Positions 32,272-37,636 of a stretch of DNA of 37,636 nucleotides are shown one piece after another. The translations under genes and the position numbers were made by a program. The first letter of the stretch is position 1. Each line of letters begins with the position of its first letter. The notes under the pieces are model-generated. The model saw only the letters and a program-made list of their open reading frames with translations. It had not been told where the DNA came from and made no database searches. Origin of the DNA: Desulfobacteraceae bacterium (GTDB lineage: Bacteria; Desulfobacterota; Desulfobacteria; Desulfobacterales; JAABSP01); the NCBI GenBank assembly GCA_011389855.1, contig JAABTM010000013.1:1-37636 (forward strand), given 5' to 3'.

Positions 32272-32511
32272 ATGCCGCTTCATTTGTACAGGGATATTTA
32301 TGATTCTGACTCGGTTCCGGAAAATTGGCGTCCCATCAAGGGGGCTGCAATCAAATATCCCGTGCGCAATTCAGCAGTGCTCCGTCACCTTCGGCAACTG
32401 GCGTCCGGTCGGTGGCAAAAAGTGATCAAGAAGGGGAATGCTGGAGAGGTGCATTATTTTGAACACGCTTCCGGACAGGTCGCCGGAGTGAAATTCTTTC
32501 CGGTCGAATGA
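32272..32511 (+). CDS. Small unrecognised protein, first gene of a cassette inside the pot operon
   Basis: The 79-residue product includes ENWRPIKGAAIKYPVRNSAV, a basic middle (SGRWQKVIKKGNAGE) and the end VHYFEHASGQVAGVKFFPVE. The compact basic fold with conserved-looking aromatic strands could suit a small toxin or nucleic-acid binder, but I do not recognise a family. It sits eight bases after potC and four bases before the next small gene. Base composition is less GC-rich than the pot genes, suggesting acquisition. Confidence 0.65.
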   Translation: MPLHLYRDIYDSDSVPENWRPIKGAAIKYPVRNSAVLRHLRQLASGRWQKVIKKGNAGEVHYFEHASGQVAGVKFFPVE

Positions 32512-32515
32512 TGAA

Positions 32516-32863
32516 ATGAAACAACGTCTCGATTTCCATTCAATTTTGTCTCAACCTGACGATGAAGAACAGACCTTGGCTTCATTCGCCCTGCTTTCGC
32601 TTGGCATTGTGGCGTCTTTGAGCGGGGGAGCGATGGACGCTTCCACCGCGGTTCAACTGTTCTTTCATGCCGATAACTGCCTTTTTGCGAGAAAAGAATT
32701 GCGATCTAAGATCGCGGACGAGATTATGAGCCGCGGGGTCCAGTTGCCGGATTTATTCGAGTCATTGCCCATCATAGAAGCGCAGAGAGAATTTCAGAAA
32801 GAACTGGATTCGATGCGCATGAGATGCTTGGAGATCCTTGAAGGCAGTCGGATAGCAGCCTAA
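32516..32863 (+). CDS. Small unrecognised protein, second gene of the cassette
   Basis: The 115-residue product is helical: an acidic N-terminal part (SILSQPDDEEQTLASFALLS) and then DASTAVQLFFHADNCLFARK and ELRSKIADEIMSRGVQLPDL. It starts four bases after its partner's stop, which is typical of toxin-antitoxin or toxin-immunity pairs. It lies 58 bases before potD. Antitoxin function is only a guess from the arrangement. Confidence 0.65.
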   Translation: MKQRLDFHSILSQPDDEEQTLASFALLSLGIVASLSGGAMDASTAVQLFFHADNCLFARKELRSKIADEIMSRGVQLPDLFESLPIIEAQREFQKELDSMRMRCLEILEGSRIAA

Positions 32864-34266: not shown

Positions 34267-35367
34267 TTGGAAAAGGAGAAAGATCCCGGCCTGGTTCAGT
34301 TCAGAGGGGTGATGAAAAAGTTCGGCGATGTGCTGGCCGTTGAAAAAACCGATCTGGACATCCCCGAAGGCTCCCTGGTCACGCTTCTGGGGCCGTCGGG
34401 CTGCGGCAAGACGACGCTGCTTCGGATGGTGGCGGGCCTGGAGACGCCCACCGAGGGCGACATCTACATCAAGGGCAACCGGATCAACGATGTGCCGATC
34501 CACAAACGGAATCTCGGGATGATTTTCCAGAATTACGCCCTGTTCCCCCACAAAACCATTTTCGACAACGTCGCTTTCGGGCTGAAATACCGGAACATCC
34601 CCAAGGACAAAATCAAGGAGAAGGTCTCCCGCGCTTTGGAAATGGTCCGCCTGCCGGGGGTGGAAAACCGGATGCCCTCCCAGCTCTCCGGCGGCCAGCA
34701 GCAGCGGATCGCCCTGGCCCGCGCCATCGTCATCGAGCCGGACGTGCTCCTCATGGACGAACCCCTTTCGGCCCTGGACGAGAACCTGCGGGAGGAGATG
34801 CGCCTGGAGATCGACAACATCCAGCGGATGCTCGGGGTCACCAGCATCTTCGTCACCCACGACCAGCGCGAGGCCCTGTCCATGTCCGACAAGATCGTGG
34901 TCATGGAAGGGGGCAAAAAGCAGCAGGAGGGCGGCCCGGAGGAGGTCTACAACAATCCGGCGAATCATTTCGTGGCCGACTTTTTGGGCCATTCCAATTT
35001 CGTGGACGGCGTGATCCAGAGCCGGGACGGCGACAGCTACCGCGTAAAGCTCGAAGACGGCAACGAATTGATGGCCGAAGGCGGCGACTGGCGGGAAGGC
35101 GACGCCGTGGAGGTGGTGGTGCGCGCCCAGAAGCTGGACATCGTCCCCCGGGATTCCCACCAAACCGACGACGCGGTCAACTGCTTTTTCGGCAAGATCA
35201 AGGAGCGCAGCTACATGGGCGGCGAAGTGAGCTATTTCGTTGAACTGGAAAACGGCACGGTGCTTCACGTCATCGGCATCGTGAAGACCAAACCGTTTCG
35301 GAGAGGGGATCCGGTGGCGGTGACGGCGCCGCCGCGGCATTGTAAGTTGTTGCGGAAGGAGGGGTGA
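34267..35367 (+). CDS. potA: Polyamine-type ABC transporter ATP-binding protein (PotA-like)
   Basis: The 366-residue ATPase shows Walker A GPSGCGKTT, Q-loop (IFQNYALFPHKTIFDNVAFG), signature LSGGQQQR, Walker B VLLMDEPLSALD and the switch His in FVTHD, followed by a C-terminal TOBE-like region. It powers the PotBCD importer. Start is TTG at 34267 with GGGAGAG at 34253-34259. The last 50 or so coding bases recur after the downstream toxin-antitoxin cassette. Its stop overlaps the HEPN start (TGATG). Confidence 0.93.
   Translation: MEKEKDPGLVQFRGVMKKFGDVLAVEKTDLDIPEGSLVTLLGPSGCGKTTLLRMVAGLETPTEGDIYIKGNRINDVPIHKRNLGMIFQNYALFPHKTIFDNVAFGLKYRNIPKDKIKEKVSRALEMVRLPGVENRMPSQLSGGQQQRIALARAIVIEPDVLLMDEPLSALDENLREEMRLEIDNIQRMLGVTSIFVTHDQREALSMSDKIVVMEGGKKQQEGGPEEVYNNPANHFVADFLGHSNFVDGVIQSRDGDSYRVKLEDGNELMAEGGDWREGDAVEVVVRAQKLDIVPRDSHQTDDAVNCFFGKIKERSYMGGEVSYFVELENGTVLHVIGIVKTKPFRRGDPVAVTAPPRHCKLLRKEG
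35311..35360 (+). repeat. Copy 1 of the potA 3'-end direct repeat
   Basis: This is the genuine potA end, coding PVAVTAPPRHCKLLRK. It is 46 of 50 bases identical to 36418-36467. Three of the four differences are synonymous in the potA frame, so the second copy looks like a fragment of a homologous potA rather than an exact target duplication. Confidence 0.85.
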
Positions 35368-35765
35368 TGAGCGATGACGCAAAGCAATCTCTGAAATATG
35401 CAAAAGAACATTTGGAGCGGGTGCAAAACGCTTGGGACAATCCCACTGATTGGTCAGACCTTTCGATTTATGGATTCTATTGCTTGGAGGCTGCCGTAAA
35501 AGCGGCAATATTGCACTATGGGTTGCCGACTACCCGCAGGCATTACAGAAAAGCGGAGATCGCAAAACAAATTGCCGATCAATACAATCTGCCGGATATT
35601 TCCGATCTCCTCATTAAACTTAATGCCGCACGCAAAGCCACCGCTTATGGAGATGTGGATTTTCCAGAAGAACTGGATGCTCAAGATACGGCGACCAAAA
35701 TCGAGGAATATGTTGACGCAGTGTATCGATTAATTGAAGGTGGAGCGAGTAAAAATGTTGACTGA
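35367..35765 (+). CDS. HEPN-domain protein, probable toxin (HepT-like)
   Basis: The 132-residue helical protein has the HEPN layout of HEPN-MNT modules: SLKYAKEHLERVQNAWDNPT, then DLSIYGFYCLEAAVKAAILH, and the last helix region LLIKLNAARKATAYGDVDFP. The usual RX4-6H active site appears here as Arg89-X4-Tyr94, with Tyr in place of His. GGAAGGAGG (within the potA end) serves as ribosome binding site for the ATG at 35367. HEPN proteins are RNases in type VII toxin-antitoxin systems. Its 3' end overlaps the MNT gene by 11 bases. Much less GC-rich than potA. Confidence 0.82.
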   Translation: MSDDAKQSLKYAKEHLERVQNAWDNPTDWSDLSIYGFYCLEAAVKAAILHYGLPTTRRHYRKAEIAKQIADQYNLPDISDLLIKLNAARKATAYGDVDFPEELDAQDTATKIEEYVDAVYRLIEGGASKNVD

Positions 35766-36411
35766 AAGCCTGTCAATAAACAATGCTGATTTTCCGCCGC
35801 ACTTTTTGCATGGCATTCAGCGATGGCCAAGCGAAGCATCAAGAAATTGGGTTGAACAATTTATAGCGTTTAATGCTTCCAACAAGCAAATCATTGCGGT
35901 TATTGCATTTGGTTCCTGCATCAGAGATGTTTCTTATAGCGCCGATGTGGACTTGCTCATCATATATTCCGGCCAAAAACCTGAGATTTCTCCACCTATC
36001 GAAGTTGATGTAAGAGCGTACAAAAAGGATAATGTTGAATCGCTGATAAACAAAGGCAATGAAGTTTTAGGGTGGTCAATCCGATATGGAATTGTTTTGC
36101 ATGAAAAAAATGGGTATTGGACCGCGCTTTGCGATAGGTGGCGTGACCGCCTGCCGTTGCCATCTGCGGACGAAGCGCTAAAACGAGCTGAAAGATCGAA
36201 AAAGTTGCTTGAAGATCTCGAAAAAATAGGCGATGAAGAGGCTATTGAAGAACAGCAGCTTACAATGTTTACTCAGCTTGCTCGCATGCATTTGATTAAT
36301 TCCGGCATTTTTCCAATATCTCGCCCTGAGCTGCCCATGCAATTAAAATCCGTTGGCGAGGAAAAAATATCAAATAAATTGTCAAAGCTCCTTTCTGAAA
36401 GATATATTTGA
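35755..36411 (+). CDS. MNT-family nucleotidyltransferase, probable antitoxin (MntA-like)
   Basis: The 218-residue protein has the minimal nucleotidyltransferase motif GSCIRDVSYSADVDLL (GSX9DXD, residues 53-66) and a third acidic residue in IEVDVRAY. In type VII systems MntA AMPylates and so silences HepT. The C-terminal third is helical. I prefer the ATG at 35755, with GGAG at 35742-35745, over a TTG at 35734. The overlap with the HEPN gene implies coupled synthesis. AT-rich compared with the pot genes. Confidence 0.83.
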   Translation: MLTESLSINNADFPPHFLHGIQRWPSEASRNWVEQFIAFNASNKQIIAVIAFGSCIRDVSYSADVDLLIIYSGQKPEISPPIEVDVRAYKKDNVESLINKGNEVLGWSIRYGIVLHEKNGYWTALCDRWRDRLPLPSADEALKRAERSKKLLEDLEKIGDEEAIEEQQLTMFTQLARMHLINSGIFPISRPELPMQLKSVGEEKISNKLSKLLSERYI

Positions 36412-36417
36412 CATATG

Positions 36418-36467
36418 CCGGTTGCGGTGACCGTGCCGCCGCGGCATTGTAAGCTGTTGCGGAAGGA
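36418..36467 (+). repeat. Copy 2 of the potA 3'-end direct repeat
   Basis: It encodes PVAVTVPPRHCKLLRK in a frame with an upstream ATG at 36415, matching the potA C-terminus except Ala to Val. The remaining three differences from copy 1 are synonymous. The pair of copies bounds the HEPN-MNT cassette exactly (35361-36417). Confidence 0.85.
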
Positions 36468-36470
36468 ATC

Positions 36471-36566
36471 ATGGTTGGGCGTCGTTTGGGATCGCTTGAT
36501 ATGTGGAAAAACAGTAAAAAAGATGTCATATTTCATAATTCCACAGCCGCTTGTTCTTGTGAATAA
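36471..36566 (+). pseudogene. Short open frame or gene remnant behind the second potA end
   Basis: An ATG at 36471 is preceded by GGAAGGA from the repeat and opens 31 codons (MVGRRLGSLDMWKNSKKDVI and a Cys-containing tail), then stops. It may be the truncated remnant of a gene that once followed the copied potA end. It resembles no family I know, so this is tentative. Confidence 0.25.
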
Positions 36567-36612
36567 ATGGCGCCGCATAAGGACAAGGCGGCGGACATAA
36601 AAACATGACCTT

Positions 36613-36643
36613 TCAGCCATGCCAAGCATGGCTGATTTCTTTT
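36613..36643 (+). terminator. Strong intrinsic terminator after the HEPN-MNT cassette
   Basis: TCAGCCATGC (36613-36622) pairs perfectly with GCATGGCTGA (36626-36635) around CAA and is followed by TTTCTTTT. A ten-pair stem and T-rich tail make this a strong Rho-independent terminator, the likely end of the pot/HEPN-MNT transcript. Confidence 0.88.
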
Positions 36644-36716
36644 GTCGGACAGCATTCAAATTGTTATGATGACCGTCTTGGGCGATAAAGTCCGACTGTC
36701 GGATAGTGTCATAAAG

Positions 36717-36846
36717 TGGATGTTGGCCGGCTTTTTTTGTGGGCTTAATGCGAAAAAAAGTTATAAATTCAATTTAGAATTTAGTTTGTGAAACTTCTAT
36801 CCTTTTTATAAAATGAGCAGATATTCTTATTTTGGATGTTGGCCGG
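36717..36846 (+). repeat. 14-bp direct repeat flanking an AT-rich segment
   Basis: TGGATGTTGGCCGG occurs at 36717-36730 and 36833-36846. The 102 bases between are AT-rich and contain no gene. The second copy lies just ahead of the promoter-like TACAAT (36853-36858) of the small gene at 36890. Confidence 0.7.
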
Positions 36847-36889
36847 AAACTGTACAATAACTAATTATATTTTTTTAAAAGAGGTGCTT

Positions 36890-37555: not shown

Positions 37556-37636
37556 TATTCAGAAAATACAGTGAAATCGAAAACAGCTCCCGCAGGAAAA
37601 CATTGGATGATATTATCGAACGAAATCTGGATCAGG
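37552..37636 (+). CDS. N-terminus of a possible Rnl2-type RNA ligase (partial)
   Basis: Only the first 28 codons are in the window: MIFRKYSEIENSSRRKTLDD and on. The opening 'F-x-KYS-x-x-EN' matches the start of T4 RNA ligase 2 (MFKKYSSLEN) and related proteins. AAGGAG precedes the ATG with a six-base gap. If correct it would seal RNA nicks. The catalytic lysine motif lies beyond the edge, so the identity is tentative. Confidence 0.5.
   Translation, partial: MIFRKYSEIENSSRRKTLDDIIERNLDQ

Follow-up and report, generated by a model that had tools for sequence, protein, structure and literature searches.

How toxin-antitoxin modules without an integrase move between chromosomes is an open question, and it is raised by a locus at which a small HEPN/MNT gene pair stands directly behind a potA gene. 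The locus lies in a stretch of 37,636 nucleotides, called the window below, which is a contig of a metagenome-assembled genome (MAG) of an uncultured, sulfate-reducer-type Desulfobacteraceae bacterium. The original prediction held that the last 50 bases of potA recur behind the MNT gene, and that the cassette probably arrived with the end of a homologous potA, regenerating the gene in the manner of some integrative elements. The locus was compared with the corresponding place in a genome of the same genus, the Desulfobacteraceae MAG S20.Bin143 (G001).

Cassette and repeats at the end of potA

The repeat search recovered the predicted direct repeat with its four mismatches. Positions 35311-35360 and 36418-36467 were identical at 46 of 50 positions, with 1,107 nt from start to start. 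The next-best matches of the 50-mer in the window reached 28/50 on the + strand and 32/50 on the - strand, and the best score in 200 shuffles of the window was 32/50. The four differences between the copies were those described before: three are synonymous in the potA frame (GTG>GTT, ACG>ACC and TTG>CTG) and one exchanges Ala for Val (GCG>GTG). The longest run of exact match between the copies was 19 nt. The repeat ends 7 nt short of the end of the potA stop codon and so includes neither the last PotA codon nor the stop. The features of the locus are as follows.

34267..35367, + strand: potA-like ABC transporter ATPase gene (spermidine/putrescine type), 366 aa, ending in ...LLRKEG*; open reading frame with ABC_tran and TOBE_2 matches, 95% DNA identity to the congeneric gene in G001
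35311..35360, + strand: upstream copy of the 50-nt repeat, the functional potA 3' end; repeat search, 50/50 identical to the potA end of G001
35361..35369, + strand: GGGGTGATG, with the last PotA codon, the stop and the HEPN start in a TGATG overlap; sequence and alignment, missing from the empty site, which has ATCATGA there
35367..35765, + strand: gene for a HEPN-domain protein, 132 aa, without RX4-6H (it has RKATAYGD); PF05168, AlphaFold model and Foldseek
35755..36411, + strand: gene for an MNT-like nucleotidyltransferase, 218 aa from ATG 35755 (listed ORF start 35734), with GSX9DXD and an alpha-helical C-terminal part; PF18765 below cut-off, 28% identity to the protein of a distant pair (G074)
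36418..36467, + strand: downstream copy of the 50-nt repeat, probably the displaced old potA 3' end; repeat search, followed by ATCATGG where G001 reads GAA TCA TGA, the stop now being TGG
36468..36862, + strand: original potA downstream flank, common to the empty site; alignment, and blastn of 36418-36862 against G001 at 90%
36613..36635, + strand: terminator-like hairpin behind potA, also in G001, so placed that the cassette lies between potA and the hairpin; consensus scan, with counts near, not above, shuffle expectation, and conservation in the alignment

Two gene starts were corrected with respect to the first reading of the sequence: the HEPN gene starts at ATG 35367, in the TGATG overlap with the potA stop, and the MNT start is best placed at ATG 35755, with an 11-nt overlap with the HEPN stop. 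A promoter scan of the + strand from 34900 to the HEPN start, in which consensus counts were near shuffle expectation, found nothing promoter-like. The coupling of potA, HEPN and MNT suggests that the cassette is expressed with the transporter operon, whose terminator would be kept.

A 61-codon open frame (36415-36600) starts with the displaced potA tail in the potA frame, its ATG 4 nt behind the MNT stop; this is probably coincidence. Between potC and the potD-like gene, two overlapping small genes of 79 and 115 aa without family match occupy positions 32272-32863, where G001 has about 37 nt. They amount to another small insertion of two genes in this operon, without flanking repeats.

Empty site and origin of the new potA tail

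The original prediction had proposed that closely related strains be compared for an empty site, and among 40 related genomes one was found, in G001 (contig JAABTD010000011.1). There, blastn and alignments showed that potA runs through a single 50-mer directly into the flank that follows the second copy in the window, without a cassette, and the contig is collinear with most of the window. The stop and flank of G001 match the side of the downstream copy, with TGG in the window for TGA. The last codon and stop of the window potA (GGG TGA) are unlike those of G001, and the resulting C-terminus, ...KEG* in the window vs ...KES* in G001, is the only change that the insertion would have made in PotA. 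Because the ending and flank of G001 match the downstream copy, this copy is best read as the old resident potA end, and the upstream ending as having come with the cassette. The alignment thus points to an insertion of the cassette at the potA 3' end, from which the present last PotA codon and stop would derive and in which the old tail became a relic (TGA to TGG); the comparison is between one empty-site genome and one filled genome, itself a MAG.

An insertion with regeneration of the potA end was therefore borne out by the empty site and the lost stop of the relic, and the differences between the copies suit ends that evolved separately. No related genome carried both copies without the cassette. 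An old tandem potA was rejected, as the repeat spans just 50 nt and the potA tail is single-copy in other genera.

Whether the new tail was imported or copied on the spot was judged from the substitutions. The downstream copy differs from G001 at 4 of 50 positions, the flank at 26 of 438 and potA at 52 of 1095; within potA, the last 68 nt of the window gene show no difference from G001 and the preceding 84 nt show ten. At least three synonymous changes out of four would be expected with p ~0.93 under coding divergence, as between the two potA genes, and ~0.11 under neutral decay. Had the four changes of the downstream copy arisen in situ, they would be ~3x the expectation (P>=4 ~0.05, half the flank divergence assumed); all these statistics rest on four substitutions. 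They are moderate evidence that the tail was imported from a related strain rather than freshly duplicated, since the differences between the copies look older than the insertion. Of the original claim that the cassette came with the end of a homologous potA, the regeneration of the end thus stands on the empty site, and the import of the tail is favoured with moderate strength.

DNA encoding PPRHCKLLRKE was searched for in 84,980 species genomes, a collection that may omit the window's own genome, and matched once, in G001. This single match marks the tail as a feature of the genus rather than a widely travelling attachment site, and suggests that both tails come from this genus. The 50-mer was absent from the viral contigs of IMG/VR.

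The HEPN/MNT module

The HEPN protein matched PF05168 with 31.5 bits (cut-off 22). Its AlphaFold model had a pLDDT of 84, and the best Foldseek match was 2hsb, an archaeal HEPN protein, followed by the HepT structures 7bxo, 6m6w and 5yep. The MNT protein matched PF18765 (Polbeta) at E 1e-4, below the curated cut-off, and did not reach PF01909; its AlphaFold model, built from two sequences, was poor (pLDDT 52) and was set aside. The nucleotidyltransferase motif in the window, GSCIRDVSYSADVD, reads GSX9DXD, where GSX10DXD is expected of the MNT proteins of Class I and Class II alike. The G+C content is 42-45% in the module vs 61% in potA. No Rfam or PADLOC match was obtained.

Relatives of the module are rare. 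A search of 390 genomes of the class at E 1e-6 gave no further MNT relative, and one of 291 genomes at 1e-8 gave no HEPN relative. The phylum sample yielded one distant HEPN/MNT pair (G074; MNT 28% identity), in which the HEPN protein has RKDVAYGE at the place of the motif and the MNT protein has GSX10DXD and passes PF01909. A tblastn search of phage and plasmid records and a search of viral contigs gave no relative of the MNT protein, and a phage or plasmid origin was rejected on this result and on the absence of the 50-mer from viral contigs.

Type VII systems combine a toxic HEPN protein with an MNT protein that neutralises it by AMPylation. In these systems, the Class I HEPN protein carries an RX4HXY motif, whereas Class II combines a PF05168 HEPN protein without RX4H with an NTP_transf_2 MNT protein (PMC7641770). 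The module had first been labelled type VII, and this label was not upheld: like HepT/MntA of Shewanella (SO_3166/SO_3165), the pair combines a HEPN fold with an MNT partner, but its HEPN protein has RKATAYGD where RX4HXY is expected and so has no predicted RNase centre. The HEPN side instead fits Class II, with PF05168 above cut-off, no RX4H RNase motif, a conserved tyrosine in the equivalent segment and an adjacent, overlapping MNT-like gene. The MNT side departs from Class II (PMC7641770) in having GSX9DXD rather than GSX10DXD, a length of ~218 aa, a helical C-terminal part, a score below PF01909 and a position behind HEPN. A toxin role of Class II pairs is unproven, and the module is called toxin-antitoxin-like. 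By family, a pair controlled by nucleotidylation would be the likeliest function: the MNT protein may nucleotidylate the HEPN protein, perhaps at the conserved tyrosine of the RKxxAYG segment.

Route of insertion and similar loci in the family

We give an even chance to the reading that a compact Class II HEPN/MNT module was inserted at the potA 3' end by recombination in a shared, imported tail. The module would have arrived joined to a potA tail that stemmed from a congeneric strain. A Campbell-type single crossover in the shared tail, with a circular or short molecule as donor, would then have given the resident potA a new tail and pushed the old one behind the module. PotA would stay whole, and the module would be co-transcribed with the transporter operon and translationally chained to it by the TGATG and the 11-nt overlap. 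A single crossover is preferred because it yields exactly an intact gene, the module and a truncated old end. A point against it is that the repeat, at 50 nt with an exact core of 19 nt, is short for RecA-type recombination. The donor arrangement was found nowhere in the data searched.

The ORF list, Pfam and PADLOC showed no integrase or transposase in the insert, which holds HEPN and MNT only, and a repeat search found no terminal inverted repeats at its ends. A DDE transposon was rejected on both counts.

The main rival to the single crossover is a recombinase acting in trans. Here the 50-mer would be the attachment site, the cassette a minimal element, the potA 3' end attB and the enzyme a tyrosine or serine recombinase; we consider this possible, if unlikely. 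The use of an exact gene 3' end with a regenerated frame, the att-like length of the repeat and the precise empty site all speak for it, and tyrosine recombinases are present in the window's genome. SGI1-type islands insert at the trmE 3' end in a like manner (PMC8409611). They share with the locus the gene 3' end, the direct repeats on both sides and the restored host gene. Unlike them, the window insert is 1.1 kb long, without integrase or transfer genes, and no second instance of the site was found. The recombinase is absent from the insert, the tail occurs in no other genus and on no viral contig, and a travelling element adapted to it was not seen; moreover, around similar modules in other family members the duplications range from 285 to 735 nt in length, whereas an att core is fixed. 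The predicted likeness to integrative elements extends to the direct repeats that include a gene 3' end and to the single-copy empty site, but is unproven, as the insert holds no integrase and viral contigs of IMG/VR lack the 50-mer.

Duplication in situ is unlikely. An insertion would have copied 50 nt of its target, as a long target-site duplication or by repair or template switching, and the downstream copy would have decayed. This would require no donor with a potA tail, and it agrees with the identity of the upstream copy to G001 and with the placing of all changes, including the loss of the stop, in the downstream copy. However, three of the four changes are synonymous, the amount of change is too great for the time since insertion, and the TGATG coupling would be fortuitous. 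Neither a transposase nor terminal inverted repeats were seen, and the usual target duplications of transposons are far shorter than 50 nt.

It is quite improbable that the cassette is ancestral and that recombination between the copies removed it from G001. Such a loss would leave one 50-mer like the upstream copy, followed by the flank of the downstream copy, as in G001. The cassette was nevertheless found in no other sampled genome of the class, potA tails are single-copy in other genera, a gain and a loss would be needed vs one gain, and the formation of the structure would be left unexplained. Given the rarity of the module in the class and phylum samples, gain in the window lineage is preferred by parsimony to loss in G001.

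An assembly artefact is very improbable indeed: the MAG is in 569 contigs and direct repeats are typical break points, but the longest exact match, 19 nt, falls below the k-mer lengths usual in assembly, the two junctions are internal to a contig of 37.6 kb that is collinear with G001, and the reading frames are coupled without a scar.

The arrangement appears to recur in the family, if rarely: three more toxin-antitoxin-like modules stand between gene ends duplicated over 449, 285 and 735 nt. On contig C55 of G001 (L082 1021-1469 and 2365-2813), the gene order is a 936-aa Hsp70/DUF3731 gene, an antitoxin-like gene and a PIN gene, behind which the 449-nt Hsp70 3' end stands a second time. The displaced copy is 91% identical and keeps an open frame (23 of 38 coding changes synonymous), and a 99-nt duplicated piece of a HEPN gene adjoins; this locus could also stem from a tandem duplication. 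On contig C401 of G001 (L166 2617-2901 and 3945-4229), the 3' 285 nt of a DUF4351 gene are repeated across a frameshifted HEPN-like gene and an 86-aa gene. On contig C147 of a further genome, G002 (L083 6392-7126 and 9009-9740), 735-nt copies of a membrane-protein gene, 94% identical, flank a HEPN-MNT pair. A 320-nt match (L133) was discarded as a tandem gene copy without a cassette. The survey covered ~1.1 Mb of G001 and of the window's genome (G000), selected in part for HEPN genes, with HEPN-containing loci that are no random sample, and its clear cases were the window, C55 and C401.

Side observations were made at these and other contigs. Contig C490 of G000 breaks at the place corresponding to the C55 duplication. 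Beside one of the 735-nt copies on C147 lie 41 nt that exactly repeat part of the MNT gene. On contig C77 of G002 (L071 316-397, 1383-1464 and 2826-2904), three copies of a hairpin-forming repeat of 80-95 nt separate an Rpn-like nuclease gene and a HEPN/87-aa/MNT cluster.

The varying lengths of the duplications speak against a fixed attachment core and for recombination or repair. We tentatively raise the possibility, in itself unlikely, of a general integrase-free route by which small toxin-antitoxin-like modules spread with the 3' ends of host genes. A module would travel with such an end, enter by recombination there, renew the gene and leave its former end on the far side; products of this route would be the potA/HEPN-MNT, hsp70-like/PIN, DUF4351/HEPN and gene X/HEPN-MNT loci.

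Integron traces were observed nearby. The likeness between the window and G001 ends at ~36862, beside a GTTAGGC in G001, and just past the potA flank G001 has an attC-like site with a strong hairpin (GCCTAAC...GTTGGGC; L021 9075-9151, contig C135) behind a 118-aa gene, which suggests integron-type cassette turnover next to the flank. The window's genome encodes a full-length integron integrase (C168, 10346-11278; TIGR02249, 367 bits, cut-off 265), near which a simple script found no attC-like site. The insert resembles an integron cassette in being small, behind a host gene and near the place of the G001 site. Unlike such cassettes, the window had no attC-like site from 36301 to its end at 37636, the cassette 3' end included, by a script that detects the G001 site and is not a full attC covariance search; an integron cassette was rejected for this reason.

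Literature searches found no precedent for gene-end integration of this kind, for duplicated ends around toxin-antitoxin cassettes or for potA as a site of insertion. HEPN/MNT modules and the targeting of gene ends are each known already; what is new is that the two are combined without an integrase, that old and new ends can be distinguished and that there are hints of recurrence. The locus bears on how integrase-less modules move: sister species provide a filled and an empty site, the present gene end is distinguishable from the former one, and the insert takes a place in a host operon that it leaves unharmed. Should the pattern recur, recent captures may be found systematically by their signature, a truncated gene end behind a small module, and the recombination route tested.
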